Part shown: piece after piece, positions 13,920 through 60,646 of the stretch
Numbering within the stretch: position 1 is the stretch's first letter
How the letters are laid out: the number at the start of each line of letters is the position of its first letter
Source: Mesorhizobium loti R88b
GTDB taxonomy: Bacteria; Pseudomonadota; Alphaproteobacteria; Rhizobiales; Rhizobiaceae
DNA length: 64,000 nucleotides
Assembly (NCBI RefSeq): GCF_013170845.1
Contig: NZ_CP033367.1
Span: 2,171,001 to 2,235,000 of the forward strand
Direction: 5' to 3'
Translations under genes and position numbers: made by a program
The notes under the pieces: generated by a model
Databases searched by the model: none
Seen by the model: only the letters and a program-made list of their open reading frames with translations
What the model was told of the DNA's origin: nothing

Positions 13920-14009
13920 GGAGAGGTGGCCGAGTGGTTGAAGGCGCACGCCTGGAAAGTGTGTTTACGGGAGACCGTAACGCGGGTTCGAATCCCGCTC
14001 TCTCCGCCA
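13920..14009 (+). tRNA. tRNA-Ser (anticodon GGA)
   Basis: A 90-base class II tRNA with encoded CCA. Acceptor strand GGAGAGG pairs with TCTCTCC; the anticodon stem CACGC pairs with GTGTG around loop CTGGAAA, giving anticodon GGA; a long variable arm and the T arm GCGGG-TTCGAAT-CCCGC follow. Its 3' end is the left attachment site of the island, so the gene remains intact after integration. Confidence 0.95.
13996..14009 (+). repeat. attL core: 3' end of tRNA-Ser
   Basis: The 14 bases CGCTCTCTCCGCCA at the end of the tRNA gene recur exactly and in the same orientation at 60633-60646, next to the integrase gene. Bases on either side differ. Confidence 0.7.
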
Positions 14010-14089
14010 TATCATCAAATAAATCAACAACTTATAGTGAATTTCAGAGCTTACCCGCCAAAGAGCCCATCATGCAGGATGCTATTGAT

Positions 14090-14317
14090 TTAGGCAGCAT
14101 GCGACGGCGTGAGACATCCGGCCGGGGCGCCATTCCCATCATAAGACGATATCTTGGACCCATCGAGATCACAATTCTGGCAAAGGCGGTGAGCGACTAC
14201 TAGGCTGGGGTGAATCTGGCCTTTCTGTGTAGCGCTGTTCTGTAAATCCTTTGCGGCCGCCTCGATCGACGCCGCGCGCGCGTCTTCGATGAATTGCTTA
14301 ATCGCCTCTTCGCTCAT
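14090..14317 (-). CDS. Small hypothetical protein near the island's left end
   Basis: A 75-residue frame starting MSEEAIKQFIEDARAAS, an amphipathic, coding-like N-terminal helix region, divergent from the membrane protein at 14374. The second half (after about residue 40) looks less protein-like, so it may be a truncated gene. It is the first frame inside the island; no family is recognised. Confidence 0.35.
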   Translation of the reverse strand: MSEEAIKQFIEDARAASIEAAAKDLQNSATQKGQIHPSLVVAHRLCQNCDLDGSKISSYDGNGAPAGCLTPSHAA

Positions 14318-14373
14318 GCGGATACCATGCCTTGCGACATGTTATGCTGCCGCACTTTCCGAAGGGGGACACG

Positions 14374-15036
14374 ATGCTGATGCGCGTCTGCTGGTTGTTG
14401 ATTGGGGTCGCAATTGGAGTTGCTGTGACTTTGGCGATCACAAGCCAAACTTGGCTGATCGCAAGCCTTGAATACAATCTGACCTGGGACCGGGGCCGAG
14501 ATTGGGTTGGAGCTTTGTCCGGCTGGGCAGCATTCGTCGCAGCAGCGGCAAGCTTGCCCTATTTGATAGGACAGTGGCGCGAGGCCAAAAAGCAAACGAG
14601 ATTCGTGATCGGCGACGAAGATCCAACCCTCGACGTCATCGAACATTTGAAAGACAAAAACACGCTTGTTATCAGAATAGTGAACTGGAATAGGCGGACG
14701 ATCTTCGTGAAGGACATTGCGGTCGCGTCCAAAACCAAACCCTCGAACATGACGGACCAGGCTGTCGTTTGGGACGCCAAGAACGAAGATGGTGATGTCG
14801 ACGCGAAACTCCCCATTCAGATCAAGGGCTGGGAAGATCGAGCGGCAAGGCCCGGCTTTGCGAGCCTCGATATCCTTCTGATTAGACAAGCAGCCGGTAG
14901 CGAGGAGAACTGGACAGCAGACAGCGTAGTGCCTTTCCCGCAGGATGCGAGCATAGTCGCGACCATTCAGCTGCTGGGCAACGTGCACCGCCTGCTTGAG
15001 CTCACCGCAAACGCGTTTCCTGCAAAAACGCCTTGA
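14374..15036 (+). CDS. Hypothetical protein with two N-terminal membrane segments
   Basis: A 220-residue protein. Residues 5-30 and about 50-65 are hydrophobic; the remainder (from about residue 75) is a soluble beta-rich domain (FVIGDEDPTLDVIEHLKD). Start chosen at the ATG preceded by GGGGGA; an earlier in-frame ATG at 14332 lacks a ribosome site. It is the first well-formed gene inside the island, isolated from neighbours, with lower GC than the flanking core genes, consistent with acquisition. The layout of membrane anchor plus cytosolic beta domain is seen in several small defence or stress proteins, but nothing here identifies a function. Confidence 0.6.
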   Translation: MLMRVCWLLIGVAIGVAVTLAITSQTWLIASLEYNLTWDRGRDWVGALSGWAAFVAAAASLPYLIGQWREAKKQTRFVIGDEDPTLDVIEHLKDKNTLVIRIVNWNRRTIFVKDIAVASKTKPSNMTDQAVVWDAKNEDGDVDAKLPIQIKGWEDRAARPGFASLDILLIRQAAGSEENWTADSVVPFPQDASIVATIQLLGNVHRLLELTANAFPAKTP

Positions 15037-15117
15037 TGTAGGCTCCAGCGCCCGGAGCGCGTTGTCGGATGCGCACGCCGATGTCATCAGTCGTCAAAGC
15101 CAAGGTCAACGACGTCT

Positions 15118-15558
15118 TCAGCAAGGAACCAGTCTTGTGCCAGTTCCCTTTTCGGTCGAATTGGACGAGATAGGACGTGCGCCCACGATCGCGCCAAGCG
15201 CCAACCCGCTGCTGGTGGACGGAACTACATTTCGACCCTTTCTGTCTGGCGCCTTCAGCCGAATTGCGCCTGCGTAACCGTCCCGGATGTCGATAGGCTG
15301 CTCGACCAGATGGTCAAAGTTCTGAAATGAATATTCCAGCCATTCGACCTCGGGAAGCGCGGCCGCCATGTGCACACCAACCTCCAGGAAAGTGTTGCCG
15401 ATGCTGACCGGGATCCCGAGTTCGGCGGCAAGCCATCCGATGCGCATGACATCCGTCACTTGGCCGTGGACATTCAGGATGTCTGCCGCATGGGGATGGA
15501 CACGGACGTCGAGAAGACCTTGTCCATAGGCCATTTGCCCGGCATTTCGTTTGAACAC
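15118..15558 (-). pseudogene. C-terminal remnant of an enolase-superfamily (mandelate racemase-like) gene
   Basis: The frame encodes the last 100 or so residues of a mandelate racemase/muconate-lactonizing-type enzyme: HPHAADILNVHG, ELGIPVSIGNTFLEVG and LEYSFQNFDHLVEQP match the end of the barrel and the return strand. The N-terminal capping domain and all catalytic residues are absent, and the true C-terminus is also altered. It overlaps in a different frame with the 3' end of the lysR gene, marking a deletion junction near 15555. Confidence 0.7.
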
Positions 15559-16442
15559 TGCTTAAGGCGCTCGATCATCCAACGGCCCGCGGGTCCCGGA
15601 GGTGAGGCGATTGGGTAGATGGCCGATATCGGCAGCTCAAGTCCGCCCCGTGGTATATCTTGGATCGAAAGTTCAACAAGCCGCCCCTCGGCGATGTCCT
15701 TCCCGACGACGTGGAGCGGCATGCCACCCCAACCCAGCCCGCTGATGAGAAAGGCGTGCTTGGCAAACAGGTCAGCCAACCGCCAGGTTGAAGGCGATAT
15801 GACTCCGATCTCCCTCCCGGCTGATAGATCGGATCGATCAGTGAGCACCAGTTGAACGTGTCGCGCCAGCTCATCCCGTGGAATGAGGCCACCATACGCC
15901 GCCAGCGGATGGTTTGCAGCCGCGACCATGACAAAGTCAACGCTGGTGACGCGCTCGGCCACAAGGCCAGAGGGCAGTACTGGCAGAGATCCAACGATGC
16001 CGAAGCTTGCGCGACCATCCATGACGGGTTGCACCGCGCCGCCGAGCGCCTCGACAAGTAGCCGCAAAGGTGTGGCGGGGAATTGTCCGCGGAACTCGTG
16101 AGCGACCTCGGCAATCGCGGTGATCGGAAAGAAGACGTCGATCACCGCAGCCAGCTCCGCCTCCAGCCCGCCTGATATTCCCTTCGCGCGTGCCTTCATG
16201 CCATCAACGCCGGACACGACAGCCCGCGCGTCGGCAAGAAGCACACCACCTTCGGTCGTCAGCCGCGGATATCGAGCGCTGCGGTCGAACAGCGTTACCC
16301 CAAGCTGCGTTTCCAAGTTGGCCATGGTTTCGCTGACGGCAGACTGGGTTCGCCTTAGGCGCCGGGCCGCAGCAGAGAAGCTTCCTTCGTCAGCCGCGGC
16401 AACAAAAGTCCGCAGTTGGTCAAGAGATAGACCATCAAGCAC
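15474..16442 (-). CDS. LysR family transcriptional regulator
   Basis: A 322-residue regulator with the N-terminal winged helix (LDQLRTFVAAADEGSFSAAA, residues 6-60) and a periplasmic-binding-like effector domain from about residue 90. The final 25 residues read into a remnant of another gene and are probably not native; family members end near GPAGRWMIERL. It is divergent from the pirin gene, 438 bp away, and is the likely regulator of the pirin-hydrolase set. The intergenic region has an inverted repeat at 16609-16631. Confidence 0.87.
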   Translation of the reverse strand: MLDGLSLDQLRTFVAAADEGSFSAAARRLRRTQSAVSETMANLETQLGVTLFDRSARYPRLTTEGGVLLADARAVVSGVDGMKARAKGISGGLEAELAAVIDVFFPITAIAEVAHEFRGQFPATPLRLLVEALGGAVQPVMDGRASFGIVGSLPVLPSGLVAERVTSVDFVMVAAANHPLAAYGGLIPRDELARHVQLVLTDRSDLSAGREIGVISPSTWRLADLFAKHAFLISGLGWGGMPLHVVGKDIAEGRLVELSIQDIPRGGLELPISAIYPIASPPGPAGRWMIERLKQCSNEMPGKWPMDKVFSTSVSIPMRQTS

Positions 16443-16631: not shown

Positions 16632-16880
16632 AGTATCGTGACATACCGGCTTTCCCGGCACGTGCGATGGTGGCATTACGATCCTTAGACGCAATCGACA
16701 AATTCAACCAAACCCCGAGCCGACCCATGGGCGGTGCAACAAATTCGCCTGTGAAGGTGGCGGGTTCGCAACACCAGCACTATCGGCCTGTACCTCAACG
16801 TCTTTGTTGAGATGAACATGCGCTTTGGAGCGAGATCACTGCGCGACAGCGCCGAATTGAACTCTACAATGGAGGCGGCA

Positions 16881-17810
16881 ATGACTGTTACGAGTGCCCT
16901 GCAAGACTCGGCAGTGGAACATTTGATCCTTCCGCCTGTTCGCGATCTGGGTGATGGGTTCAAGGTTCGCCGTGCGCTCCCATCGGCACAGCGCCGCACG
17001 GTTGGTCCTTTCATTTTCCTCGATCATTTCGGACCGGTGGTGTTTCGAGAAGGGGCTGGCCTGAATGTCCGCCCCCATCCCCATATCGGCCTGTCGACCC
17101 TCACCTACCTGCTCGAAGGCGAAATGGTTCATCGAGACAGCATCGGGAGCGTTGAGACGGTCCGTCCCGGTGACGTGAACTGGATGACAGCGGGTAGCGG
17201 CATCGTCCACTCCGAGCGCTCACCCGCGAAATTGCAGGCTCAAGGTGGAACGATGTTCGGCCAGCAAATCTGGGTCGCCTTGCCCAAGGCGCTCGAAGAA
17301 ATGCAGCCGGGTTTCTCCAATCACGCCAACGGCACTCTGCCCAGGCTCCAGGCCGACGGAGCCTCGCTCACCGTCGTTGCGGGCAGTGCGTTCGGAGAAC
17401 GCTCGCCGGTGCCGGTCTATTCGGACCTGATGTATGTCGACGCCGTGCTCCAGCCTGGCGCGCGGTTGCAAGTGCCCACGGATCATATCGAGCGGGCCGT
17501 GTTTGTCGTCTCTGGCGAGATTGAAGTCGCCGGCCAGACAGGAACATTCGGCGAAGCGCAGTTTGTCGTCTTCAAGCCTGGCGCGGAGATCATCGTGAGC
17601 ACACGCGGCGGAGCGCATCTGATGCTGGTCGGCGGCGAACCTTTTCCCGAGCAACGTCACGTCTACTGGAACTTCGTTTCGAGTTCCAAGGATCGGATCG
17701 AGCAAGCGAAGGACGACTGGCGGCAGGGCCGCTTCCCCGAAGTCGCTGGCGAAACGGAGTTCATTCCGTTGCCGCCAGAGCCTACGCAGGTCGAGTCTGC
17801 CGGCTCATGA
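16881..17810 (+). CDS. Pirin family protein
   Basis: A 309-residue bicupin. The N-terminal cupin has the metal-binding motif RPHPHIGLST near residue 70 with further histidine at EMVHRDS and SGIVHSE, as in the iron-dependent quercetin 2,3-dioxygenase-like pirins. The C-terminal pirin domain (QTGTFGEAQFVVFKPG) follows. Start set at the ATG preceded by GGAGG with five-base spacing; an upstream in-frame ATG at 16812 lacks one. It is first of a plus-strand group with an isochorismatase-like hydrolase, an ABM protein and DUF1622. Enzymatic activity is possible but not shown by sequence. Confidence 0.9.
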   Translation: MTVTSALQDSAVEHLILPPVRDLGDGFKVRRALPSAQRRTVGPFIFLDHFGPVVFREGAGLNVRPHPHIGLSTLTYLLEGEMVHRDSIGSVETVRPGDVNWMTAGSGIVHSERSPAKLQAQGGTMFGQQIWVALPKALEEMQPGFSNHANGTLPRLQADGASLTVVAGSAFGERSPVPVYSDLMYVDAVLQPGARLQVPTDHIERAVFVVSGEIEVAGQTGTFGEAQFVVFKPGAEIIVSTRGGAHLMLVGGEPFPEQRHVYWNFVSSSKDRIEQAKDDWRQGRFPEVAGETEFIPLPPEPTQVESAGS

Positions 17811-18068: not shown

Positions 18069-18830
18069 ATGAAGCGCAGAGAGATACTTATTGCCGGCGC
18101 TGCAGCCGGTGCAGCGACATTGCTGACGACGCCGACGACCGCGGTAGCCGCCGCCGCAGCCAGCACATCCAGTTCCAAAACCAAAGGAAATGACATGACA
18201 TCAAACAAGTGGATGATTGACCCGAACGATGCTGTATTGCTGCTGATAGATCATCAGAGCGGCTTGTTCCAGTTGGTCCGTGATATGGAGTACAGGGAAC
18301 TCCGCAACAACGTAAATGCTCTTGCGAAGGTAGCGAAGATCGCGAAGATCCCGACCGTTGTAACGGCATCAGTTCCCGAAGGTGCTAATGGTCCGACCAT
18401 TCCCGAGATCCTTCAGAGCAACCCCGATGCGGTGTACGTTCCACGCAGCGGCCCGATCAACGCGTGGGATCACCGCCCCTTTGTCGAAGCGATCGAGAAG
18501 ACCAAGCGGAAGACACTGCTGATCGCAGGCACACTCACCAGCATTTGCATGGTGTTTCCCGCACTGAAAGCTCTCGAGGCTGGATACAAAGTGTTCTGCA
18601 TTGTCGATGCATCGGGCAATTGGTCGAAGATGGCGACCGACATATCCATTGCCCGGGTCACGCAGGCGGGCGCGATGCCGATTGACACATTCGCGGCGAT
18701 TACAGAGGTGATGCACACTTGGGATCGCCCAGACGCGATGGAATTCGCCAAGGTCTTTGTCGACCACGTCGAACCCGCATATGGGGCGTTGTTTGAAAGC
18801 TATTACGCGGCACAGAAAGCCGCGAAATAG
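18069..18830 (+). CDS. Isochorismatase-family (YcaC-like) hydrolase with Tat-type signal
   Basis: A 253-residue cysteine hydrolase. Residues 1-30 have two arginines followed by a hydrophobic alanine-rich stretch ([14 protein letters not shown]), suggesting twin-arginine export. The hydrolase domain has the aspartate in LLLIDHQSG near residue 61 and the nucleophile cysteine in [11 protein letters not shown] near residue 161. An internal ATG at residue 43 would give a cytosolic form without the signal, so dual starts are possible. It follows pirin by 258 bp and precedes the ABM gene. Substrates of this family range from isochorismate to amides; not predictable here. Confidence 0.87.
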
Positions 18831-20727: not shown

Positions 20728-20783
20728 ACTAGCCGCCACCGTAAGCCGGCAAGCGAAAACGCAGCTATTCGGCTGATCCATTG

Positions 20784-21590
20784 TCGGTGAAGGGCGAGGC
20801 GCTCGGCACGCACTGTACCGACCAGCCAGTGGGTGTCGACTGCCAGCGCAAGCGCGCCTTCGATGATGCCGCGCGGCTGCTGCAGATTTCGCATCTGCTC
20901 GACCGACGCCCCGCCAATCTCTCGGGAGGAAAGCGCCAGCGCGTTGCGATGGGGCGCGCGATCGTGCGCGACCTGGAGCTGTTCCTTTTTGACGAGCCGC
21001 TTTCCAATCTCAATGCCAAGCTTCGTGTGGAAATGCGCACGGAGATCAAGCGCCTGCACGAGCGTCTCGGCACGAGCATCGTCTATGTGACGCACGATCA
21101 GATCGAGGCGATGACGCTCGCCACCAAGGTGGCGGTGATGAAGGGCGGCCACATCCAACAGTTTGCCGATCCTCGCACCATCTACGAGCGGCCAGCCAAC
21201 GTCTTCGTGGCAAGTTTCATCGGCTCGCCAGCGATGAACTTCCTGCCCGGCGTCTGGTCTCGGACGCGAACGGCGCGCATTTCGCAGCGAGCGGTGTGTC
21301 GGTCACATTGCGAGCCGGCAAGCGGCCGGCCGATTTCCAGCGCCCGGTCATCCTGGGTATAAGGCCTGAAGAACTAAAGACCGTTGCGCCCGATGAGGCT
21401 TCGGTCACGGGGGTGATCGACGTCGTGGAGCCCACGGCCCCCGAAACCATGGTGACGGTGCAGGTTGGTGAACAGTCGATCATAGCCCGCCTGCCACCGA
21501 GGTTTGCAGACCGGCGAAACGAGCCGATATTTCTTGCCGTCGATCCGGCCAGCGTCAACCTGTTCGATCCGCCAGCGAGCAGCGCATCGA
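20784..21590 (+). pseudogene. Truncated, frameshifted sugar ABC transporter ATPase (MalK/UgpC-like)
   Basis: The first frame begins in the helical subdomain and contains the signature NLSGGKRQR, Walker [11 protein letters not shown] and the H-loop VTHDQIEAM but no Walker A: roughly the first 100 residues are gone. Near 21250 the coding frame shifts by one base (the expected continuation [16 protein letters not shown] is in another frame), and the second frame, visible from 21296, carries the regulatory OB-fold part ([11 protein letters not shown]). The 5' end was replaced by unrelated sequence. It is a remnant of a CUT1 importer. Confidence 0.82.
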
Positions 21591-21659: not shown

Positions 21660-22556
21660 TCATTCATCGAACCCAATCAGTGACCGCATCAGCGTCGCTC
21701 TTGCCGAAGCCAGATGCGCTCGGCAGGCCCGCTCAATTCGGTCGGGATCGCGACTTTCGAGCGCATCGATGTAAGCGAGATGCTCGAGGATCGCCGCCTG
21801 GTTTCGCTGCTGTTCGTCCTGCTTGTTCCACTGATAGTGGTAGTGAAAAATGAAGCTGATGATGTCGTAGAAATCGTCGATAAAGCGGTTCGGCGACGCC
21901 TCGTTTATGAGCCGATGAAACCGGTTGTCGAGACCGGAGAAGTCGTGATAGCGGCCTTCAATCCGCTTCAGCAATTCGCTGTGCGCAACCTTGAGCGCGG
22001 CGAGCTTGTCCCACAGGGGAGACGTGTCGGGTTGGCGTGAAAACAGATGCGCCGAGCGCAGCTCGAACATCACCCGGATCTCGAACAGCTCAAGAGCGAA
22101 ATCCTCCGTGAAGCCCTTGAAAAGCCAGCCAGTATTTGGCCTTTTCTCCAGCAGGCCAAATCGGCTGAAGCGGATCAGGAACTCACGAATTCCGTTGGTC
22201 GCGACACCGAACTGCCGGGCAAGTTCGAGTTCGTTGATGCTGGTGCCAGGCCTGGTGTCACCCCGCAGCATCCACTCCATGAATTGCTGTTCGACGTGGT
22301 TGGCCCGCGACGTGGTCTCGGCGTCGGGATAGTAGTCGCTATCCTCGACCGCGCGGCCCGCCGTCCGGACGCCGCCGCGCTCGGCGACGAGTTCGCGGTG
22401 GGCAAGTTCTCCCAGAACCTTTCGAACGGTCGTACGGCTCACGCCTATCCGCCGTCTCAGCTCATTTTCAGAAGGGAGCTCACCGGTCAATTGTCCATCC
22501 CGCAGCATGGTGGCGGCGCGGTTGAAGGCCTTTTTGTACACAGTGTCGGTTCGCAT
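21660..22556 (-). CDS. GntR family regulator with two winged-helix domains and an FCD domain
   Basis: A 298-residue repressor-like protein. Residues 8-65 form a first GntR winged helix (LPSENELRRRIGVSRTTVRK); residues 86-148 form a second helix-turn-helix wing (INELELARQFGVATNGIREF); the remainder is an all-helical effector domain of FCD type with histidine/arginine metal-ligand candidates. Standard FadR-type proteins have only one winged helix. Start set at the ATG preceded by GAGGAAG. It is divergent from the CUT2 transporter operon; the intergenic dyad at 22607-22647 is its likely operator. Confidence 0.85.
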   Translation of the reverse strand: MRTDTVYKKAFNRAATMLRDGQLTGELPSENELRRRIGVSRTTVRKVLGELAHRELVAERGGVRTAGRAVEDSDYYPDAETTSRANHVEQQFMEWMLRGDTRPGTSINELELARQFGVATNGIREFLIRFSRFGLLEKRPNTGWLFKGFTEDFALELFEIRVMFELRSAHLFSRQPDTSPLWDKLAALKVAHSELLKRIEGRYHDFSGLDNRFHRLINEASPNRFIDDFYDIISFIFHYHYQWNKQDEQQRNQAAILEHLAYIDALESRDPDRIERACRAHLASARATLMRSLIGFDE

Positions 22557-22606
22557 CGGTTCTTCCTCTGGGCAACACCTTGTCCTTTCTAGCATGAACT
22601 TTATCC

Positions 22607-22647
22607 ATAAAAAACAACTTGACCAAGTGATGATGGTTGTTTTTTAT
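22607..22647 (+). promoter_or_regulatory. Promoter overlapped by a perfect 12-bp inverted repeat
   Basis: ATAAAAAACAAC (22607-22618) and GTTGTTTTTTAT (22636-22647) form a perfect dyad with a 17-base spacer. Within it TTGACC (22619-22624) and TTTTAT (22642-22647) are spaced 17 bases apart, a good sigma-70-type promoter for the plus-strand transporter operon. The right arm covers the -10 box, so a bound regulator would block transcription. The adjacent GntR protein is the natural candidate. Confidence 0.68.
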
Positions 22648-22723
22648 CGATAAGAGGAAGCTGAAATACAGCAAAAGTTTTGACGACGAGAGCTCGCATG
22701 AGCTTTCGGCGGGGAGGGGAACT

Positions 22724-23776
22724 TTGCCTGAAACGGGGAACACCGGCACCACTGCCGGCGAGGCCGCATTGCCAGAGCCCAGGAAGCAGGAAGCCGTTCC
22801 CGGCCTTGCGCTTGGTCTGGCTCTATTGAGCGCCGGCCCGGTCGTTATCCTGGTGCTGCTGATCGTCGTACTCAGCTTTCTGTCGCCCTATTTTCTGACA
22901 GGGCGCAATCTCAGCAACATCCTCGCCCAGACCGCCGTCATCTCGGTTGTGGCGATGGGCCAACATCTGGTCATCCTGACACGCGGGATCGATCTCTCTG
23001 TTGGCTCGAATGTCGCACTGGCCTCCGTCGTCGGCGCGCTCAGCTTTCATGCCGGCGCTCCCGCCTTCGTCGTGATCGCGGTGATGGTTGGCTGCGGTGC
23101 GGCGGTCGGCGCCATCAACGGCCTGTTCTATGTGTTCGGCCGGCTGCCGCACCCTTTCATCATCACGCTGGCGACATTGAGCATCGCCAAGGGATTGGCG
23201 CTGCAACTGGCCGACGGCCGTGCCATCCCTGGCATGCCGGATTCGATCGACGCGCTTGGCCGCGAGGCGGTCTGGGGTCTGCCTGGATCGGTCTTCGTCG
23301 TTGCCGGCGTCGCCGCGGTTTTTTTCGTCATGGCCAAGACGATGGTCTGGGGGCGCTGGATCTATGCCGTCGGCGGCCGACCTGACGCCGCGGTGCGGAT
23401 GGGCATTCCCGTGTCCTGGGTCCTGGTTTCGGTCTATGTGATCTCAGGGCTGTGCGCAGGCGTCGGCGCGGTCATCCTTGCCGGCCGCACCGACGCCGGT
23501 TCGCCGTTGTTCGGCAATCTGCTGGAACTGGATACGATCGCGGCGGTGATCATCGGTGGCGCCAGTTTCCTCGGCGGCCGCGGCCATCTCGGCCATGCCC
23601 TGATCGGCGCCATCATGATCGGCGTCATCCGCAACGCGCTCAACCTGCTCAACGTCAATATCTTTTTCCAGCTCATCGTCATCGGAGTGGTCATCGTCAT
23701 CGCGGTCGAGTCCGACGTGCTTCGCAACTACCTCGAAGGGCGTGTGCGTGTCATGCATGCTGGGAGGCCGTCGTGA
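22724..23776 (+). CDS. CUT2-type sugar ABC transporter permease (RbsC/FrcC-like)
   Basis: Membrane subunit of a monosaccharide importer. A 350-residue protein with eight to ten membrane segments and the family core (VAMGQHLVILTRGIDLSVGS, VIIGGASFLGG). The frame is open from an ATG at 22637, but that ATG overlaps the predicted -10 box, so it cannot be in the transcript; the TTG at 22724 has GGGGAGGGG seven bases upstream and is preferred. It overlaps the ATPase start by four bases. Followed by ATPase and binding protein, then sugar oxidoreductases. Confidence 0.85.
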   Translation: MPETGNTGTTAGEAALPEPRKQEAVPGLALGLALLSAGPVVILVLLIVVLSFLSPYFLTGRNLSNILAQTAVISVVAMGQHLVILTRGIDLSVGSNVALASVVGALSFHAGAPAFVVIAVMVGCGAAVGAINGLFYVFGRLPHPFIITLATLSIAKGLALQLADGRAIPGMPDSIDALGREAVWGLPGSVFVVAGVAAVFFVMAKTMVWGRWIYAVGGRPDAAVRMGIPVSWVLVSVYVISGLCAGVGAVILAGRTDAGSPLFGNLLELDTIAAVIIGGASFLGGRGHLGHALIGAIMIGVIRNALNLLNVNIFFQLIVIGVVIVIAVESDVLRNYLEGRVRVMHAGRPS

Positions 23777-24558
23777 GCGCGGTCGCGGCTAGCGCCGATC
23801 ACACTGTCACCGCCGACCCTCCCGTGCTGGCGGTACGCGGTGCCAGCAAACGCTTCGGCTCGGTTCTGGCACTCGACGATGTCAGCATCGAGGTCCGGCG
23901 CGGCGAGATTCTCGGGCTTCTTGGCGACAATGGCGCTGGCAAGTCGACGTTGACCAAATGCATCAGCGGGGTGCACCAACTCGATGCCGGCGCGATCCTT
24001 CTGGACGGTGCGCCAACGCAAGTACGCTCCCCTGCGGATGCGCGCTTCGCCGGCATCGAGACCGTCTATCAAGACCTGGCGCTCTTCGACAATCTGACAC
24101 CGGGACAGAACTTCTTTGCCGGTCGCGAGTTGGCCTGGCCGCAATGGCTTCCGCGCGGCCTGCGCTTTCTGCAGCAGCGCAAGATGGACGCCGAGACCCG
24201 CGTCCTGCTGGCAAACCTCAAGGTGACGCTGCCGCGGCTGGATGCCGTCGTCGCCATGATGTCGGGCGGACAGAGGCAGGCGATCGCCGTGGCACGCTCT
24301 ACCGTGTTTGCCCGCAAGGTTGTCATGCTCGATGAGCCAACCGCTGCACTTGGCCTGCGTGAATCGCGCCAGGTGCTCAATCTGGTTGCCACGCTCCGCG
24401 ACCAGGGCAACGCCGTCATCCTGATTACCCACAACATGGAACATGTCATCGAGCTTGCCGATCGCGCCGTGGTGCTTCGCCAGGGCCGCAAGGTTGGTGA
24501 ACTCGTGCCGACCAAGGACAACAAGCAGGAGCTGGTTTCCATGATCGTTGGAGCCTGA
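23773..24558 (+). CDS. CUT2-type sugar ABC transporter ATPase (single domain, FrcA-like)
   Basis: A 261-residue ATPase with Walker A GDNGAGKST near residue 50, signature MMSGGQRQA near residue 158 and Walker B VVMLDEPTAA. Unlike RbsA-type proteins of about 500 residues it has only one ABC domain, as in the rhizobial fructose transporter FrcA, so it probably acts as a homodimer. Start is a GTG overlapping the permease stop (GTGA). The binding protein gene follows 88 bp later. Confidence 0.9.
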   Translation: MSAVAASADHTVTADPPVLAVRGASKRFGSVLALDDVSIEVRRGEILGLLGDNGAGKSTLTKCISGVHQLDAGAILLDGAPTQVRSPADARFAGIETVYQDLALFDNLTPGQNFFAGRELAWPQWLPRGLRFLQQRKMDAETRVLLANLKVTLPRLDAVVAMMSGGQRQAIAVARSTVFARKVVMLDEPTAALGLRESRQVLNLVATLRDQGNAVILITHNMEHVIELADRAVVLRQGRKVGELVPTKDNKQELVSMIVGA

Positions 24559-24646
24559 TCCGTTCGAAATTTGGGGATCGTTCCGGTCCGCAAATGCCTG
24601 AAGCGTCTTCCATCGGAAGGCGTCTCAATCCAAGGGAGGACTGCAA

Positions 24647-25561: not shown

Positions 25562-25634
25562 GCTCCCACACCTCGGCCCGGCGGGCATCCCAGCCGCCGG
25601 GTTCTTTTTGGAACATTTCAGGAAGATGGTCCGC

Positions 25635-50300: not shown

Positions 50301-50632
50301 TTCTTCCTCCAAAGGATAGTGATGGATGATCGGCAAGCCGACATCCTCCAGTGTCGATCATCCCTAACATGGCGAACTATCCGATCCCCAGGTTGCGGCG
50401 TAAATGCTCGCTCAAGTATCTTGAGATACCGTCGCTTCGCAGCCGACTGCCGCTGCAAGCAGACGGACACAGCCGACTCGGGCCATCTTTTTGTGAGCCC
50501 AAGTGTGGGTCAAGGATCGTTTCGGGATCACCTCATCCACTGATCCAGAGGAAGTATGCCAACATACCAAGGGGCCTCTCGCCATGGTCACAATCGCTCG
50601 AGTAATCTGGAGCTGATCGGGAGGGGATCGCC
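50301..50632. other. Divergent promoter region, no gene seen
   Basis: About 330 bp between the dioxygenase gene and the FAD synthetase gene. It must hold promoters for both directions. Only short frames are present. Confidence 0.4.
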
Positions 50633-51226
50633 ATGCAGTTGCTGTCACAGTCCGTCAAGTTGAAATGTCACGTGGCCGGGGCCCTCCGATTGCCCCGGAG
50701 CGTGATCGCTATCGGGACATTCGATGGCGTCCATCGCGGGCATCAAAAGGTGCTCGGCAACGCAGTCAATGCCGCTCGGCGACTGAACTGTCCTGCCGTA
50801 GTGTACACGTTCGACCTTCCTCCGAAAGCGCTGTTCAAAGGTACGAGCGTCCTGACGGCACCAGACGAAAAGGTTCGCCGATTGGCGGCATTGGGGCTGG
50901 ATCACTGCATCCTGGCCAAGTTCGACCGAACATATGCGTCCCGAACCGCTGAAGCCTTCCTTAGCGAGCTCGCAGCGTTGAACCCGGCCGAAATCTGGGT
51001 GGGAGAAGATTTTCGCTTCGGAGCCGATCGCAAGGGCGACGTGGCTACACTGGCCGCGCATTTCCCGGTCCGGCTGACCAACGCCGTGCGCTGCCACGAC
51101 GGGGACGTAATCTCGAGCACGCGCATTCGCACGCTCATGGAGGAAGGCGACACCTTGGCCGCCGAAATCCTGGTGGGGCACTTCAGTGACTGCCATGACG
51201 CTACTGAATTGTGGCGCGTCACCTGA
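50633..51226 (+). CDS. Single-domain FAD synthetase (RibF N-terminal module)
   Basis: A 197-residue protein equal to the FMN adenylyltransferase half of RibF: IGTFDGVHRGHQKVL near residue 27, VGEDFRFG and the SSTRIRTLMEEGD motif. The C-terminal riboflavin kinase domain is absent, so it should make FAD from FMN only. Housekeeping RibF is bifunctional and about 320 residues. Its position beside flavin-dependent monooxygenase genes suggests it raises FAD supply for them. Divergent from the dioxygenase. Confidence 0.85.
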   Translation: MQLLSQSVKLKCHVAGALRLPRSVIAIGTFDGVHRGHQKVLGNAVNAARRLNCPAVVYTFDLPPKALFKGTSVLTAPDEKVRRLAALGLDHCILAKFDRTYASRTAEAFLSELAALNPAEIWVGEDFRFGADRKGDVATLAAHFPVRLTNAVRCHDGDVISSTRIRTLMEEGDTLAAEILVGHFSDCHDATELWRVT

Positions 51227-51794: not shown

Positions 51795-52649
51795 TCATGC
51801 GCGATGCCGCGGCATACGGTCGAGCGCGTCCAGGAAGAACGGGCGGAATCCATCGGGATGTTCGCTCATTGGAAAGTGACCCAGCATGTCCATCACGGAA
51901 ATCGTGGCTCCAGTAATGGCCCGCGCGGTCCGGCGGGCGTCTTCGGGTGTACAGGTCAAGTCATAGGCGCCCACCAGGATATGAACCGGGGTCTTCGAGG
52001 AGTCGATAGAGCCGAGGAGCGGAATCAGACTCTCGTCCTTCGTATAGAAGCTGAGGTCGCCTCGGAACACACCAGGGCCTGAAGACATGAACATCCACAG
52101 CGTGTTCCAACGCTCGGCATTCGGCGCATGGGGTGAGATGTTGGCCGAAACCAGGGCCGCCCCCATCTCGCCGCCATGCGCGTCGGGGCGGTGGAACCAG
52201 TCGATGTCGTACCAGGCAGGTTGGAAATCCGACGCCTCGATCGCAATGAAGCCCGCGAACCGCTCGGCATGCCGCGCAGCAAGCTGCAAGGCGATCCGTC
52301 CGCCCATCGAACAACCTGCCAGCACTGGACGCTCTAGCCCAAGGGCATCGCAAACCGCGCACACGGTTTCAATGTACGCCTCCGTGGTCAGAAGATACTC
52401 CTCAGTCTCAAAACCCTCGGGAGGTAGCGACTTGCCGTGCCAGGGCATGTCGAAAGCGATCATCCTGTTCGCATCGGTCACACCGGCGTCGTTCATTAGA
52501 TGCCGCCACTGGCGCGTGTCTGCGCCGGCGGTGTGAAGGCATATAACCGGCCTGCCCGTGCCGGCCTCCTCGAAATAAATGCGGTGGGACCGCCCGCCAA
52601 TCGCAACGGTCACGTAACGCCCCACGATAGGCTCAACTGCCCCCCTCAT
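51795..52649 (-). CDS. Alpha/beta hydrolase
   Basis: A 284-residue hydrolase with nucleophile serine in LAGCSMGGRIA near residue 115, oxyanion HTAGADTRQW and histidine in LGHFPMSEH near residue 264. Start overlaps the upstream gene stop by four bases (ATGA). Its partner is the SCP2-like protein. Not close to the hydrolase at 44970-45785 by motif context. Substrate unknown. Confidence 0.82.
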   Translation of the reverse strand: MRGAVEPIVGRYVTVAIGGRSHRIYFEEAGTGRPVICLHTAGADTRQWRHLMNDAGVTDANRMIAFDMPWHGKSLPPEGFETEEYLLTTEAYIETVCAVCDALGLERPVLAGCSMGGRIALQLAARHAERFAGFIAIEASDFQPAWYDIDWFHRPDAHGGEMGAALVSANISPHAPNAERWNTLWMFMSSGPGVFRGDLSFYTKDESLIPLLGSIDSSKTPVHILVGAYDLTCTPEDARRTARAITGATISVMDMLGHFPMSEHPDGFRPFFLDALDRMPRHRA

Positions 52650-53634: not shown

Positions 53635-53883
53635 TTACGTCCACCCGCCCTTTTGCCCCTCATACCACTCGGCGTCGAACGCCTGCTTTCCCTTCGCGGT
53701 CCACAGGTCCCGCGCATGCTCGCCTTCATGGCTTTGCAGCTTGGCTGCGATCCAGAGCATCGCGCCGTAGATCGTGGCGCGATCGTCATTGGTGAGCTCG
53801 ACAATGCCTGCCTTGACGACGAGACCGCCGAGTTCGATCAAATGTCGCGTGCGCTGGCGTCGCTCGACCTGCCACGTGCGCAT
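53635..53883 (-). CDS. traD: Conjugal transfer protein TraD
   Basis: An 82-residue protein with RTRHLIELGGLVVKAGIVEL and DDRATIYGAMLWIAAK, typical of the small TraD of Ti and rhizobial plasmids (not the F-plasmid coupling protein of the same name). Follows traC by one base, so the two are translationally coupled. It is an accessory DNA-transfer protein of unknown precise role. Expected downstream traG is missing. Confidence 0.82.
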   Translation of the reverse strand: MRTWQVERRQRTRHLIELGGLVVKAGIVELTNDDRATIYGAMLWIAAKLQSHEGEHARDLWTAKGKQAFDAEWYEGQKGGWT

Positions 53884-53884
53884 A

Positions 53885-54211
53885 TCATGCCGAGCCTGTG
53901 TTGCTAGCCGGCGATTGCGAGCTGTCCGGTTGCGGCGGAGCGCCGCGAGGGTTGCGCTGAGATCCCGAAGCAGTTCGCCGGGAGCCGCTCTCGAAAAACA
54001 TCACTCCACGCTTGGCCCGTGCCTCACGCATTGCTGTGTCTTTCGTCTCGGTGATTGCGACGAGCGCGCCGGCCAGTTCGTCGGTGCTGAGCTGATCGGC
54101 GCCGGTGGCGATGACCAATTCGCCAAGCTGCTGCACCTTTCGCGTTTTGAGTTCTCGCGCTTTGTCCTCCAGTGCCTTCAGTTCCGCGTCGAAATCGCGT
54201 GGTTTACGCAT
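53885..54211 (-). CDS. traC: Conjugal transfer protein TraC
   Basis: A 108-residue protein with an N-terminal charged coiled coil (DFDAELKALEDKARELKTRK) and a helical body (GELVIATGADQLSTDELAGA) as in Ti/rhizobial plasmid TraC. Start at 54211 has GGAG six bases upstream; an ATG four codons earlier is possible. It is divergent from traA and flanks oriT, the usual layout of the Ti-type DNA-processing region. The C-terminal third (after residue 70) is longer and basic-rich compared with plasmid relatives. Confidence 0.82.
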   Translation of the reverse strand: MRKPRDFDAELKALEDKARELKTRKVQQLGELVIATGADQLSTDELAGALVAITETKDTAMREARAKRGVMFFESGSRRTASGSQRNPRGAPPQPDSSQSPASNTGSA

Positions 54212-54283
54212 GGCTGTCTCCATTGATTGTCGATCTCAGGATGATAGTTGAGCGTCCGCCGGAAGGCTTCAGGGTTGCCGAGA

Positions 54284-54353
54284 CAGCCCGGGACGGGCTG
54301 GTCCATCCCGAGATTTTTTCGAGGGAGGGCGCGCTTATACGTCGTGCCGACGT
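54284..54353. other. oriT with pTi/RSF1010-like nic site
   Basis: The minus strand reads CGTATAAGCGCGCCCT (54341 to 54326), matching the conserved TG/CGCCCT nick region of RSF1010 and pTi oriT; nicking is predicted between 54332 and 54331 on that strand. A perfect hairpin, ACGTCG-TGC-CGACGT, lies beside it at 54339-54353, and another dyad CAGCCC/GGGCTG at 54284-54300. Located between divergent traC and traA. Confidence 0.75.
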
Positions 54354-54383
54354 GCGGTTTGACGTGCAAATGATCTGGTCGCG

Positions 54384-57380
54384 ATGGCGATCTATCATCT
54401 TCACGTCAAGGTCATTGGCCGCAAGGCAGGCTCGAGTGCTGTCGCGTCAGCCGCTTACCGCTCGGCTTCGCGGCTGCGTGACGAGCGCATCGAACGCACG
54501 CATGACTTCTCGGCCAAGCGCGGCGTTGTCCATTCCGAGGTCTTGCTGCCGGAGAGCGCGCCCGAAGCCTGGCGCGACCGCGAGAGGCTGTGGAACGATG
54601 TCGAGGCGTTCGAGGTCCGCAAGGATGCGCAGCTTGCCCGCGAGGTCGAGTTTGCCCTGCCACGTGAACTCAGCCAGGCGCAAGGCATCGAACTGGCGCG
54701 GGACTTTGTACAAGTCGAGTTTGTCAGCAAGGGCATGGTCGCCGATCTCAATGTGCATTGGGACCGGGCTGAGGATGGCAGTCCCAAGCCGCATGCCCAT
54801 GTCATGCTGACCATGCGGTCGGTGGACGAGAACGGTTTTGGCGCCAAGGTTCGAGACTGGAATGCTACCCAGATGGTCGAGCGCTGGCGCGAGCGATGGG
54901 CGGAGCTGGCCAATGAACGCCTGGCCGAACTCGACATCGATGCCCGTATCGATCATCGCAGTCTGGAAGCGCAGGGCATTTCCCTGGAGCCGCAAACCCA
55001 GATTGGTGCACCGGCTCAACGGATTGAGGGCAGCGGCCTTGCTGCTGGGGACATTGAAGCCGATCGCGCCGAACTGCATCGCGAGATCGCGCGCAACAAT
55101 GGTGCGCGCATCATTGCCGATCCATCCGTGGCGCTCGATGCCATCACCCATCAGCAATCGACCTTTACTCGAAAAGACATTGCGAAGTTCTCGCATCGCC
55201 ACAGCGATGGCGTGGAGCAGTTCAACGAGGTCGTGGCAGCCATCACCAACGCACCCGATCTGGTCGAACTCGGCAAGGACAGACGCCGCTATGACCGCTT
55301 CACCACGCGGCAGATGATTGAGACCGAACAGCGCCTGCATCGCGCTGCGGAACGCATGGCCGGGGAGGAGCGCCATGCGGTGAGTGACGCACGGCGCGAG
55401 GCAGCGCTGGCGCGGGCTGCGCAACACGGGCTTGTCCTGTCAGGCGAGCAGACCGATGCATTGGATCACATCACCGATGGTCGCGGTCTCGGTGTCGTCG
55501 TCGGCTTTGCCGGAACGGGCAAGAGCGCCATGCTGGGCGTTGCGCGCCAGGCATGGGCACCAGCAGGCTACGAGGTTCGAGGCGCCGCACTCTCCGGCAT
55601 TGCCGCCGAGAATCTCGAAAGCGGGTCAGGAATTGCCTCGCGCACCATCGCCAGTATGGAGCATAGCTGGGGACAGGGCCGTGATCTGCTTACCGCCCGC
55701 GATGTCCTGGTGATCGATGAGGCCGGCATGGTCGGCACGCGCCAGTTGGAGCGCGTGCTTTCCCATGCGGCGGACGTTGGCGCAAAAGTCGTCCTTGTCG
55801 GCGATCCACAGCAGTTGCAGGCAATCGAAGCCGGCGCCGCATTCCGCTCGATCCATGAGCGTCATGGCGGCATCGAAATCGGCCAGGTGCGCCGGCAGCG
55901 CGAGGACTGGCAGCGCGATGCGACGCGCGATCTGGCAACCGGCAGGATCAATGCTGCGATCAGCGCCTACGACACGCAAGGCATGGTGCATCAGGCTGCA
56001 ACGCGCAATGAGGCGCGAGGTGAACTCGTCGAGCGCTGGAATCGCGATAGGCAGGCAGAGCCAGAGGCAAGCCGGATCATTCTCACCCACACTAACGACG
56101 AGGTGCGCACCCTGAACCAGGCAGCGCGCGAGCGCATGCGCGCTGCTGGAGATCTCGGCGACGAGGTTCAGGTGAATGTCGAACGCGGGGCAAGGAACTT
56201 CGCCAGCGGCGACCGCGTCATGTTCCTGCGCAACGAGCGCGGGCTTGGCGTCACGAACGGCACGCTCGGTGTGATCGAAGAGGTCAACGCGCAGAGCATG
56301 ACTGTGCGCACTGACGATCACAGGTCGGTGCGCTTTGACCTGAAAGACTACGCGCACATCGACCACGGTTATGCCGCGACCATTCACAAGGCGCAGGGCA
56401 TGACCGTCGACCGCACATATGTGCTCGCAACGCCGGGCATGGATGCACATGGCACCTACGTCGCACTGTCGCGACATCGCGACGGGATGGACCTGCATTA
56501 CGGTGGCGACGACTTCGGTACGCGGGACCGGCTGGACCGTACGCTGTCGCGCGACCGCGCGAAGGACATGGCGTCGGACTACGAGCAGATCGACCCGGCG
56601 CAGAGCTATGCCGAGCGGCGCGGCATCACCTTTCGCGAGCGTGTCGCAGAGATCGTGCGCAAGGTCGTGCCTGAAAGGCTACGCAACATGTTCGACGGCC
56701 GGCGCCCTTCGGCAGATGGCGCGCCCGACTTCGACGGCTTGCGCAGGCCGGAAAGAGAGGAAGTGCGCCTCGAACCCGCCGCGCCCGCCAGGGAGATCGC
56801 CGAGGACGGGCAAGCGGCGTTACGGAAAGCCCGAACCGATGCGCTCGTGCGTCATGCCCGCGCCATGGACGCGATATTCAGCGAGGAGGGCGCAGGAAAC
56901 AAGGCCAGTCCGATGCGGTTGCGCGAACTGGCTAACGCCCGAAAAGCCTTCGACGAGGTGCGGCCCCATGGCTGGCGCGATGCCGAGGCGGCTTATGTCA
57001 AGAGCCCGGAACTTGTCGCCGAGGCCGCCGGCGGACGGATTAACCGCGCCATCCGCGCCCTCCAGCTTGAAACTGAAATCCGCACCGGACGGGATAACGA
57101 TCCGGGCCGCCGCGCAGACCATTTCGTGGAGCGTTGGCACAAACTCGACCGGACCAGCCAGCACCAGTATCAGGCGGGTGACATGTCCGGCTACAAGGCC
57201 ACGCGATCGGCGATGGGTGACATGGCCAAAAGCCTCGAGCGCGATCCGCAGCTTGAATCCATCCTCGCCAACCGCAAGCACGACCTTGGCATCAGCGTCG
57301 ACTCTGGTCGGCGCCTTGGTGCGGAACTCGCATTCACCCACGGCATCGACCTCGGGCGGGGCCGGGGCATTGGACTCTAG
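54384..57380 (+). CDS. traA: TraA relaxase-helicase (MOBQ/Ti-type)
   Basis: Nicks oriT and unwinds DNA for transfer. The 998-residue protein starts MAIYHLHVKVIGR with a MobA/MobL relaxase domain (residues 1-215) that includes the metal-binding PHAHVM (His137, His139). A RecD/TraI-like helicase follows: Walker A GFAGTGKS near residue 374, DEAG near 445, GDPQQLQA near 473 and IHKAQGMT near 667, VALSRHRDG later. Ti TraA is about 1100 residues, so this one is slightly short at the C-terminus but all catalytic motifs are intact. Start is the only ATG fitting the family N-terminus. Divergent from traCD across oriT. Confidence 0.93.
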   Translation: MAIYHLHVKVIGRKAGSSAVASAAYRSASRLRDERIERTHDFSAKRGVVHSEVLLPESAPEAWRDRERLWNDVEAFEVRKDAQLAREVEFALPRELSQAQGIELARDFVQVEFVSKGMVADLNVHWDRAEDGSPKPHAHVMLTMRSVDENGFGAKVRDWNATQMVERWRERWAELANERLAELDIDARIDHRSLEAQGISLEPQTQIGAPAQRIEGSGLAAGDIEADRAELHREIARNNGARIIADPSVALDAITHQQSTFTRKDIAKFSHRHSDGVEQFNEVVAAITNAPDLVELGKDRRRYDRFTTRQMIETEQRLHRAAERMAGEERHAVSDARREAALARAAQHGLVLSGEQTDALDHITDGRGLGVVVGFAGTGKSAMLGVARQAWAPAGYEVRGAALSGIAAENLESGSGIASRTIASMEHSWGQGRDLLTARDVLVIDEAGMVGTRQLERVLSHAADVGAKVVLVGDPQQLQAIEAGAAFRSIHERHGGIEIGQVRRQREDWQRDATRDLATGRINAAISAYDTQGMVHQAATRNEARGELVERWNRDRQAEPEASRIILTHTNDEVRTLNQAARERMRAAGDLGDEVQVNVERGARNFASGDRVMFLRNERGLGVTNGTLGVIEEVNAQSMTVRTDDHRSVRFDLKDYAHIDHGYAATIHKAQGMTVDRTYVLATPGMDAHGTYVALSRHRDGMDLHYGGDDFGTRDRLDRTLSRDRAKDMASDYEQIDPAQSYAERRGITFRERVAEIVRKVVPERLRNMFDGRRPSADGAPDFDGLRRPEREEVRLEPAAPAREIAEDGQAALRKARTDALVRHARAMDAIFSEEGAGNKASPMRLRELANARKAFDEVRPHGWRDAEAAYVKSPELVAEAAGGRINRAIRALQLETEIRTGRDNDPGRRADHFVERWHKLDRTSQHQYQAGDMSGYKATRSAMGDMAKSLERDPQLESILANRKHDLGISVDSGRRLGAELAFTHGIDLGRGRGIGL

Positions 57381-58812: not shown

Positions 58813-59052
58813 ATGGATTCTTCTCAATGTCGCGCCGCACGAGCGCTGTTGAAATGGACGCAAGAGGATCTCGCCGCCCGCTCCGGCGCGAGTGCTGTTA
58901 CCATTCGCAATTTCGAGAACGACCGTTCTGTTCCTCAAACTGGAACGCGATACCTCCTCCAAAAAACGCTTGAGAATGCCGGCATCGAGTTCATCCCTGA
59001 AAATGGCGGTGGTGTCGGTGTGCGCTTGTCACGGCGTTCCGAAAGTACGTAG
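58813..59052 (+). CDS. XRE family helix-turn-helix regulator
   Basis: A 79-residue protein with a Cro/CI-type helix-turn-helix (ALLKWTQEDLAARSGASAVT near residues 9-30, then IRNFENDR). Its C-terminus (FIPENGGGVGVRL) matches small rhizobial XRE proteins. It lies upstream of the convergent integrase gene and probably controls the divergent promoter or the integrase. Confidence 0.85.
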   Translation: MDSSQCRAARALLKWTQEDLAARSGASAVTIRNFENDRSVPQTGTRYLLQKTLENAGIEFIPENGGGVGVRLSRRSEST

Positions 59053-59241
59053 GAGCACGTTCTTGACCTGTGGACGTGATGCGAGTTCTTCAACTAGATC
59101 GCCTAACAGCGCACGTTTGCTATCCGAATGCAGCAAATCAACCAATTCGGCTGCGTCGCCGATTACGGCTTTGCGAACCGCGTTGCCAAAGCTCACGTCA
59201 TAGAGCTTGGCGTTTTCCCGCTCTGCAAAAATGCGGTCCAA
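59029..59241 (-). CDS. Small hypothetical protein overlapping the integrase 3' end
   Basis: A 70-residue frame (MDRIFAERENAKLYDVSFGN) that overlaps the integrase 3' end by 49 bp and the XRE 3' end by 24 bp. Composition is protein-like and it would be cotranscribed with int. Both overlaps are unusual, so it may be spurious. Confidence 0.4.
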   Translation of the reverse strand: MDRIFAERENAKLYDVSFGNAVRKAVIGDAAELVDLLHSDSKRALLGDLVEELASRPQVKNVLLRTFGTP

Positions 59242-60485
59242 TCGCTCATCATGGCGCGGCGCTTCTCAATCATGGTTTCACGCCGATATGCGGCCTCAAC
59301 GTCGCTGTTGATGGCATGGGCGAGCGCAAATTCCCGCATGTCTCTTGGATAATCTGACAACTCCCCTGCCCAATCCGAAAACGTTGACCGCAGCCCATGG
59401 GGCACGGCTGGACGCTTCGAGTTCTTGTCGAGCCAGCCCGTGCGGCCCGCCTCGATCTCGTTTTCGTGCATCCGTCTCATGGTCGCACTCAACGTCATGT
59501 CGGAGAGCATGCCGCCGCGGATCGCCGGAAACACATATTTTGTGTCGGCGGTCGCAGCCTCTTTCATAGCAGTTAGGATTGTCATTGCCGCATCGGATAG
59601 CGCCACAACGTGCGGGCGCTTCATTTTCATTCGCGACGCCGGCACTGTCCACAATTTGTCGTTCCAATCGATTTCCGACCATTCCAAACCGCGCACTTCA
59701 CCTGATCGCGCAGCGGTCAGTGTCGCGAATTCCAATGCCCGTGCACCCGTGCCTTCGCGTTTGCGCAATGCTGCGAACCACGTGGGCGCGTCTTTCAACT
59801 GAACGGCGGGCTGATTATCGACTGTCGCAACCTTGCTTGGCTTGGACAACATGGCATTGAGATTGCCCTTCCACTGTGCCGGATTGTCGCCCTCGCGGTG
59901 TCCGTGTGCCTTTGCCCAATCAAGCACGCGTTCGCAACGTTGCCGCAAACGCGTGGCCGTCTCCGTCTTGGTCGTCCAGATCGGCTTAAGGATTTCGACC
60001 ATGTGATGTTTGGTGACTTCGGAAACGGCAAGATTGCCGATGACGGGCATTGCATAGTTGTCCAGCGTGGATTGCCATTGCTTCCGATGCTTTTCGTTCC
60101 TGAATTCCGCCAGCGTGTCGACAAGGAATTTGTCAACGGCATCGCGGAATGTGAGATGGCGCTTTGCGGCCTCGATCGCGGCTTTGCGACGCTCGCGCTT
60201 CTCTTGAAGCGGATTGATGCCGTTGCGGATTTTGTCTTTGGTCGCCCTCGCCCGCTCGCGGGCTTCGCCCAATGATACGTCATGCCCGCCAAGACCCATT
60301 TCGCAACGCCGGCCATTTACGTTTGTTGTGCGCAATAGCCATGACCGGCCGCTGCCCGGCGTGATTTGGAGCATGAGCCCGGCAACACCGCCGACAGCAA
60401 ACACAGCGTTGCCCGGTGTGGTCGATCCGGGGTGTTTCAAGTTCTTGACGGCTAGTGCTGAAAGTTCCTTCGCGATCTTCGGCAT
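59193..60485 (-). CDS. P4-type tyrosine integrase
   Basis: A 430-residue site-specific recombinase with the N-terminal DUF4102 arm-binding domain (residues 1-100) and catalytic domain: Arg260 in TAARSGEVRG, Lys near 287-289, His363 and Arg366 in VPHGLRSTF, His390 and nucleophile Tyr400 in AINSDVEAAYRR. Such integrases target tRNA 3' ends. It reads into the element from the right end, with attR 148 bp upstream of its start. All catalytic residues are present, so it should be functional. Confidence 0.95.
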   Translation of the reverse strand: MPKIAKELSALAVKNLKHPGSTTPGNAVFAVGGVAGLMLQITPGSGRSWLLRTTNVNGRRCEMGLGGHDVSLGEARERARATKDKIRNGINPLQEKRERRKAAIEAAKRHLTFRDAVDKFLVDTLAEFRNEKHRKQWQSTLDNYAMPVIGNLAVSEVTKHHMVEILKPIWTTKTETATRLRQRCERVLDWAKAHGHREGDNPAQWKGNLNAMLSKPSKVATVDNQPAVQLKDAPTWFAALRKREGTGARALEFATLTAARSGEVRGLEWSEIDWNDKLWTVPASRMKMKRPHVVALSDAAMTILTAMKEAATADTKYVFPAIRGGMLSDMTLSATMRRMHENEIEAGRTGWLDKNSKRPAVPHGLRSTFSDWAGELSDYPRDMREFALAHAINSDVEAAYRRETMIEKRRAMMSDWTAFLQSGKTPSSMT

Positions 60486-60550
60486 TTCTCTATCCCATTA
60501 TCTTACCCGCCAAAAATAATGGCATTGGATGATGCGGAGTGCAACGGCGC

Positions 60551-60633
60551 GAGACAGCCATTTAGATTAAAGCATTGATATTGCCTTATGATTTTCATTG
60601 ATTGAGACGACATGAGACAGCAATATGGCTGTC
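60551..60633. repeat. Repeated GAGACAGC motifs near attR, candidate integrase arm sites
   Basis: GAGACAGC occurs at 60551-60558 and 60614-60621, a variant GAGACGAC at 60604-60611, and the inverted GCTGTC at 60628-60633 touching the attR core. Integrases of this type bind short repeated arm sites flanking the core. Confidence 0.45.
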
Positions 60634-60646
60634 GCTCTCTCCGCCA
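60633..60646 (+). repeat. attR core
   Basis: CGCTCTCTCCGCCA, exact copy of the tRNA-Ser 3' end (13996-14009) in direct orientation. The base before and the base after differ from the tRNA copy, which places the repeat limits. Marks the right end of the island. Confidence 0.7.

Follow-up and report, generated by a model that had tools for sequence, protein, structure and literature searches.

A tRNA-Ser(GGA)-integrated element of Mesorhizobium loti R88b as a probable integrative and mobilizable element of the traACD type

Features of the tRNA-Ser(GGA) locus

The window analysed here is a stretch of 64,000 nucleotides from Mesorhizobium loti R88b (assembly GCF_013170845.1, contig NZ_CP033367.1, positions 2,171,001 to 2,235,000), and all coordinates refer to it. 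An element that extends from 14010 to 60646 lies directly after the tRNA-Ser(GGA) gene and features a left end common to sister elements, a long stretch of cargo genes, a transfer module at 53635-57721, and a tyrosine integrase facing the right end (Table 1). An earlier note on this DNA listed three sugar ABC systems, an aromatic catabolic cluster, and a transfer module, all of which are confirmed by domain matches, as well as several truncated genes, of which one clear case was found, the ABC ATPase fragment.

Table 1. Features of the element and of its integration target, mobility functions first and cargo below
Positions	Strand	Feature	Match or detail
13920..14009	+	tRNA-Ser(GGA), integration target, intact	ARAGORN
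13996..14009	+	attachment (att) core attL, CGCTCTCTCCGCCA	tRNA 3' end, last 14 nt
14010..14956		left end common to sister elements	CTTACCCGCCAAA repeat at 14050-14062
53635..53883	-	traD	PF06412 2e-24
53885..54223	-	traC by position, divergent from traA	TraD family PF06412 match
54224..54383		putative origin of transfer (oriT), traC-traA spacer	holds GGGCGCGCTTATACGTCG
54384..57380	+	traA relaxase-helicase, full length	NF010464 1759.5 bits; TIGR02768 908.4 bits
57512..57721	+	AlpA-family putative excisionase (recombination directionality factor, RDF)	PF05930 4.9e-18
58813..59052	+	HTH_3 (XRE-like) regulator	
59193..60485	-	tyrosine integrase (int), 430 aa, open frame without stops	Arm-DNA-bind_3, Phage_int_M, Phage_integrase domains
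60486..60632		right att arm; right-end sequence common to sister elements	second CTTACCCGCCAAA copy at 60502-60514
60633..60646	+	attR core	exact direct repeat of attL core
15474..16442	-	LysR-type regulator (cargo)	
16812..17810	+	pirin-like protein (cargo)	
18069..18830	+	isochorismatase-family hydrolase (cargo)	
20781..21362	+	truncated ABC ATPase fragment	PF00005 positions 80-136 of 137 only
21660..22595	-	GntR/FCD regulator	
22637..25561	+	sugar ABC system 1	permease BPD_transp_2, ATPase, Peripla_BP_4
25608..28760	+	polyol/sugar dehydrogenases	zinc alcohol dehydrogenase, mannitol dehydrogenase type, short-chain dehydrogenase
28881..35809	-	cassette of beta-galactosidase GH42, sugar ABC system 2 and ROK regulator	ABC system at 31050-34305
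35978..37174	-	second ROK regulator	
37226..38722	+	GH30 glycosidase	
38769..44301	+	sugar ABC system 3 and xylose-isomerase-like protein	substrate-binding protein, two permeases, ATPase at 38769-42887
44434..50336	-	aromatic-catabolism cluster	
50633..51226	+	FAD synthetase domain protein	without flavokinase-domain match
51795..52649	-	alpha/beta hydrolase	

The ends of the element had been placed at an exact, direct repeat of the last 14 bp of the tRNA gene, with the second copy beginning 148 bp upstream of the integrase reading frame, and both statements hold. The exact core occurs twice in the 7,207,166-bp genome, as attL and attR, and five matches are found when at most one mismatch is allowed. 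With up to two mismatches the window contains four matches (mean of 1.15 in 100 shuffles, four or more in 2 of the 100), and the two that are not att sites fall inside traA. Two other tRNA-Ser genes, with the anticodons GCT and CGA, were matched in the genome. It is not precise to speak of excision restoring an intact tRNA, since the core duplicates the tRNA 3' end and ARAGORN finds the gene intact already in the integrated state. In the predicted attP a 13-bp direct repeat, CTTACCCGCCAAA, flanks the core on both sides, and three GAGACA motifs were counted in one orientation (no shuffled control); the repeat and the motifs are candidate arm-type sites. The start of int faces attR, so that the int promoter region is expected to overlap with the att arm. 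Such an overlap was proposed as a condition for integrase self-regulation in a survey of tRNA-adjacent integrases (PMC2951348), and by analogy the condition may carry over to the R88b integrase.

Boundaries and sister elements

The integrase was searched in 146 genomes, R88b included. Matches with E <= 1e-100 were found in ten other genomes, seven of which feature an integrase of at least 93% identity. In all seven the left end of the element follows tRNA-Ser directly, and in the three genomes with integrases of 83%, 57%, and 51% identity the left end was not seen after tRNA-Ser. In M. loti DSM 2626 (G048) identity rises from 88.6% (up to 14009) to 98.6% over 14010-14956 (947 bp). The right end, 59901-60646, is 99.3% identical, and past it the flank becomes alignable again only from 61966. 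The left end of G028 is 86% identical over 159 bp, and in these two genomes sister similarity begins at 14010 or 14012. Ten loci reach 60646, which correspond to seven genomes, three of them seen twice. BLAST similarity ends at 60646 (L014, L016, L021, L022), 60648 (L018), 60652 (L015, L019, L020), or 60665 (L013, L017). The loci that bear the core have the right-end sequence in common and unrelated DNA beyond the core. No exact core was seen in L022, which is 82.8% identical over the integrase end, nor in L023 (M. carmichaelinearum), where the match ends at 60558.

Both ends are located on one contig in three of the seven genomes and on different contigs in the other four. The core-to-core spans at the same tRNA are 212.1 kb in G048, 23.0 kb in G028, and 23.1 kb in G176; a 33.6-kb span at this tRNA in G115 is associated with an integrase of 51% identity. 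The sister elements at the same tRNA thus have both ends in common, with a jump in identity at the boundary, and sequence comparison strongly supports the proposal that 14010-60646 is one integrated mobile element. DSM 2626 and dw_380 are both 94% identical to the region 53567-60646, G028 is 88-95% identical to it with a gap at 58683-59179, and the tra part of M. carmichaelinearum is 82-86% identical. The parts that all the close relatives have in common are thus limited to the integrase end and the left end, with the tra module and the cargo varying.

The transfer module and the class of the element

The transfer module resembles that of the traACD integrative and mobilizable elements (IMEs) of Mesorhizobium, the anatomy of which, as described in PMC8627217, is also that of the R88b element. 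A Ti-type TraA relaxase gene is present, with NF010464 and TIGR02768 both over cut-off, and traC and traD on the minus strand diverge from traA on the plus strand. A predicted AlpA-family gene takes the place of the RDF gene downstream of traA, and the integrase and att repeats delimit the element. The spacer between traC and traA is 84-98% identical in all seven loci compared (six distinct elements; L017 = L143), each of which contains GGGCGCGCTTATACGTCG, and it is presumably comparable to the Ti oriT. The NCBIfam MobQ model passes its cut-off on R88b traA. The traACD IMEs are filed under MOBF in PMC8627217.

The element lacks a type IV secretion system (T4SS) of its own, and the T4SS and coupling protein that an integrative and conjugative element (ICE) carries within its bounds were not found: none of the 55 element reading frames scanned with Pfam matches PF03135 or PF02534. 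All genome-wide matches to these two families lie at 6.28-6.63 Mb, outside the window, with VirB4/TrbE-type matches at 6.28, 6.58, and 6.61 Mb and coupling proteins at 6.59 and 6.62 Mb. Because no VirB4/TrbE or coupling-protein gene lies in it, the element is mobilizable rather than a complete ICE. On sequence evidence, 14010-60646 is very probably an IME of the Mesorhizobium traACD type, and it is a well-delimited representative of an already known class.

In the mechanism that this anatomy suggests, the integrase would recombine the 14-bp core common to the 3' end of tRNA-Ser(GGA) and attP, the cores and boundaries being directly visible. The AlpA-type protein is the likely excision factor, and because it is encoded after traA, relaxase expression and excision would be coupled, as PMC8627217 proposes for related elements. 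Transfer would begin with a nick at the oriT in the traC-traA spacer, made by TraA together with TraC and TraD, and the single strand would then exit through the T4SS of another element, most simply the resident symbiosis ICE. The cargo is placed between the shared left end and the tra-int end and varies among the members compared.

Comparison with known systems

The published adhesin IME of strain R88B, IMEMlR88B (ICEMladhR88B), which is thought to be mobilizable in trans, resembles the element in its traACD genes, divergent traC and traA, and RDF gene after traA (PMC8627217; PMC4334104). It differs in integration site, given as tRNA-Phe in these papers, and in cargo. A second traA region at 7.07 Mb (L184, 7066000-7085000) features adhesin and type I secretion system genes and an oriT-like spacer that is 92% identical. 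Genes for a cadherin-like adhesin, an ABC exporter, and HlyD are located upstream, and a CAP12/Pycsar-type TIR protein (PADLOC PDC-S35) is encoded downstream. L184 thus appears to be this adhesin IME, and the TIR protein gene near it may have an anti-phage role. Exact ends, gene order, and mobilization parts are now given for a second traACD element in R88B, so one symbiosis ICE could mobilize two IMEs at two tRNA genes. R88B gained its symbiosis island in the field (PMC4334104), and the genome has one nifH match over cut-off.

tRNA-Ser is listed among the IME sites in PMC8627217, for traACD elements with the same module. The R88b element at tRNA-Ser(GGA) was not named in the literature searched; the supplementary table of individual IMEs of PMC8627217, which lay outside that search, may list it. 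The Cicer ICESyms (M. ciceri CC1192) also integrate at tRNA-Ser, but they differ in carrying ICEMlSymR7A-related conjugation genes and symbiosis genes (PMC8627217). The traD-traC-traA-AlpA order is found in pWSM1497 as well, with 88.3% DNA identity over 3.1 kb, although this is a plasmid with other neighbours; it is called a mobilizable plasmid in PMC8627217.

Empty sites and the right flank

Twelve relatives without the element were compared over up to 20 kb after tRNA-Ser. The right flank of the window follows in order in six of them, within 2 kb in three (1.0 kb in G021, 1.1 kb in G032, 1.9 kb in G020) and within 20 kb in three more (5.5 kb in G011, 12.5 kb in G015, 16.3 kb in G009). G021, G032, and G020 have no island match of at least 150 bp. 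In the other six the flank was not found in order within 20 kb, G008 having a single inverted match of 481 bp.

The earlier note predicted an empty site in which tRNA-Ser directly precedes the 60746 gene, and this was seen in none of the relatives examined. The prediction fails, though the element is absent there, because 60647-61965 is missing from the site in all twelve non-carriers, except for a 33-bp match 18 kb from the tRNA in G021. It was not found at the site in G048 and G028 either. Partial matches to 60742-61269 exist in six relatives, far from tRNA-Ser or on another contig, and do not represent a clean empty site. This 1.3-kb segment has a GC content of 0.533 vs 0.63 in both flanks and may be the remnant of another insertion. 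Four relatives (G143, G019, G008, and G010) have second core copies at a distance of 2-8 kb, and in G176 the core end is doubled. These extra copies in relatives suggest that the tRNA-Ser(GGA) site is used repeatedly for insertion. Loci L148, L020, L137, and L138 of relatives have extra cores beside or a few kb from the site.

Alternative explanations

Several observations weigh against the reading as a traACD IME. The tra module is not common to all sisters: within 10 kb beyond int, the matches are limited to 56099-57897 (81%) and 59004-60646 (93%) in WSM3859 and WSM3862 and to the integrase end, 59180-60646 (92%), in M. loti LU. The cargo is without a match in the sister elements read, so the sisters prove the ends but not the joint arrival of all cargo. 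GC content is nearly equal, with 0.633 and 0.631 in the flanks and 0.601 in the cargo, the 1.3-kb segment beyond attR lacks an explanation, and PLSDB types pWSM1497 as non-mobilizable. Additionally, excision and transfer are deduced from sequence throughout.

The mismatch in cargo is what would be expected if a short IME at the tRNA had received its cargo by separate events, such as homologous recombination, in which case the moving unit would be younger than its parts. No cargo match of at least 100 bp was found in the whole 23-kb element of G028 or in the approximately 40 kb read of the 212-kb element of G048, and the tra module also differs between sisters. The GH42 cassette is 94.7% identical on the M. 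huakuii plasmid pMhuNZP2235a, beside DUF736, DUF2285, and replication genes, and the ATPase fragment is present. An internal att site as the means of assembly was rejected, since the only core matches (up to two mismatches) inside the island are two weak ones in traA, and the lack of any internal copy outside traA speaks against a composite origin. Such an origin has about an even chance and is compatible with the traACD IME described above.

An old integration that has lost its mobility is unlikely. The truncated ABC gene and the unexplained 1.3 kb beyond attR would fit a degenerate island, but int, traA, traC, traD, and the AlpA gene are all open. The ends are 98.6% (left) and 99.3% (right) identical to the element of another strain, with tRNA-flanking DNA of only 88.6% identity, which points to recent movement. 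Mesorhizobium also hosts tripartite ICEs, in which three regions are joined by three integrases (PMC8627217), but for R88B a monopartite symbiosis ICE is given (PMC7643969). The element encodes an integrase and a TraA relaxase of its own and contains no VirB4/TrbE or coupling-protein gene. A fragment of a tripartite ICE is bounded by non-matching att sites. Here the same core is found at both ends, and with the integrase this led to the rejection of the fragment hypothesis, which is extremely improbable.

The integrase family and its tRNA targets

The integrase family was examined in the best 80 of 104 loci with 10-kb flanks; the relatives of 83-100% identity, seven of these 80, are all in Mesorhizobium. 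A partner tRNA was placed in 28 loci, with the integrase distal to it in 20 and proximal in eight; the remaining loci are without placement because 10-kb flanks hide larger elements. In the proximal loci, all Ser, int is preceded within 1 kb by the tRNA, the 3' end of which points towards it, and only L087 has a 14-nt repeat further on. Of the other loci, 65 have no tRNA within 1 kb upstream of int and six have too little sequence there; L058 has tRNA-Arg genes on the other strand, with the ending GCGCCA, facing away and without a repeat, which were not counted as partners. In the distal loci a tRNA on the opposite strand is located 3.6-11 kb beyond the int start. Its last 14-18 nt recur 139-212 bp from that start, and some of the repeats continue past the tRNA by as many as 3 nt; with letter shuffles, 50 per case, the longest repeat was 8-11 nt. 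L029 and L062 have a distal tRNA-Ser without such a repeat. A tRNA-distal integrase, called less usual in the earlier note, is said to be unusual for island integrases generally (PMC2951348), but the distal arrangement is the commoner one found in this family, by 20 to 8. That survey retained only tRNA-adjacent integrases (1273 of 8368), so tRNA-distal ones fall outside it.

There is a pattern in the tRNA endings. All 28 placed partners (24 Ser with four anticodons, three Arg, one Asp) end in CCGCCA, compared with two of 23 other tRNAs of the same loci, both Ser. Partners were picked by position and repeat and not by ending, but neither a repeat that takes in the tRNA end nor the frequency of Ser is independent of the ending. 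tRNA-Ser genes commonly end in CCGCCA, so only the four non-Ser cases separate a CCGCCA reading from a serine reading. It is possible, at slightly less than even chances, that what this proteobacterial integrase family recognises is a tRNA 3' end that closes in CCGCCA, and not serine tRNA as such, with int mostly tRNA-distal. In that case the attP core would be inverted with respect to int, in contrast to the usual tRNA-int order. In the integrated state int would lie out of reach of read-through from the tRNA, and in the circle it would adjoin the element's left end. This family-wide att rule may be the part that is new, and it would be a testable rule for the insertion sites of related islands.

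On a tree of 78 integrases, for which three of 80 rows (L072, L092, L093) were dropped as too short, the geometry needs four changes (shuffled mean 7.2), and well-supported branches force one. Clade-specific geometry was rejected on the basis of the four changes, and many forks are weak. Loci L025-L065, L081-L083, and L090 feature small elements of about 4-11 kb with the same integrase family at Ser, Arg, or Asp tRNAs, many of them in Rhodobacterales.

The cargo

The element carries genes for sugar and aromatic catabolism, with a beta-galactoside cassette that is common to a plasmid. On pMhuNZP2235a this GH42/ABC/ROK cassette sits between DUF736/DUF2285 and replication genes; on a Rhizobium plasmid it is 90.9% identical to that of the element. 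No PADLOC match indicating defence cargo was found for eight window proteins. The aromatic cluster features genes for a flavin reductase, an alpha/beta hydrolase, a luciferase-like monooxygenase, a LysR regulator, an MR/MLE-type enzyme, and an intradiol ring-cleavage dioxygenase. No gene-length DNA match above 73% identity to 45785-50336 was found in 143 other genomes of the genus, with two candidate stretches scored per genome; 59 of the 143 have some match at E <= 0.001, mostly short. The FAD synthetase domain protein is encoded adjacent to the flavin-dependent aromatic genes and may supply their flavin cofactor.

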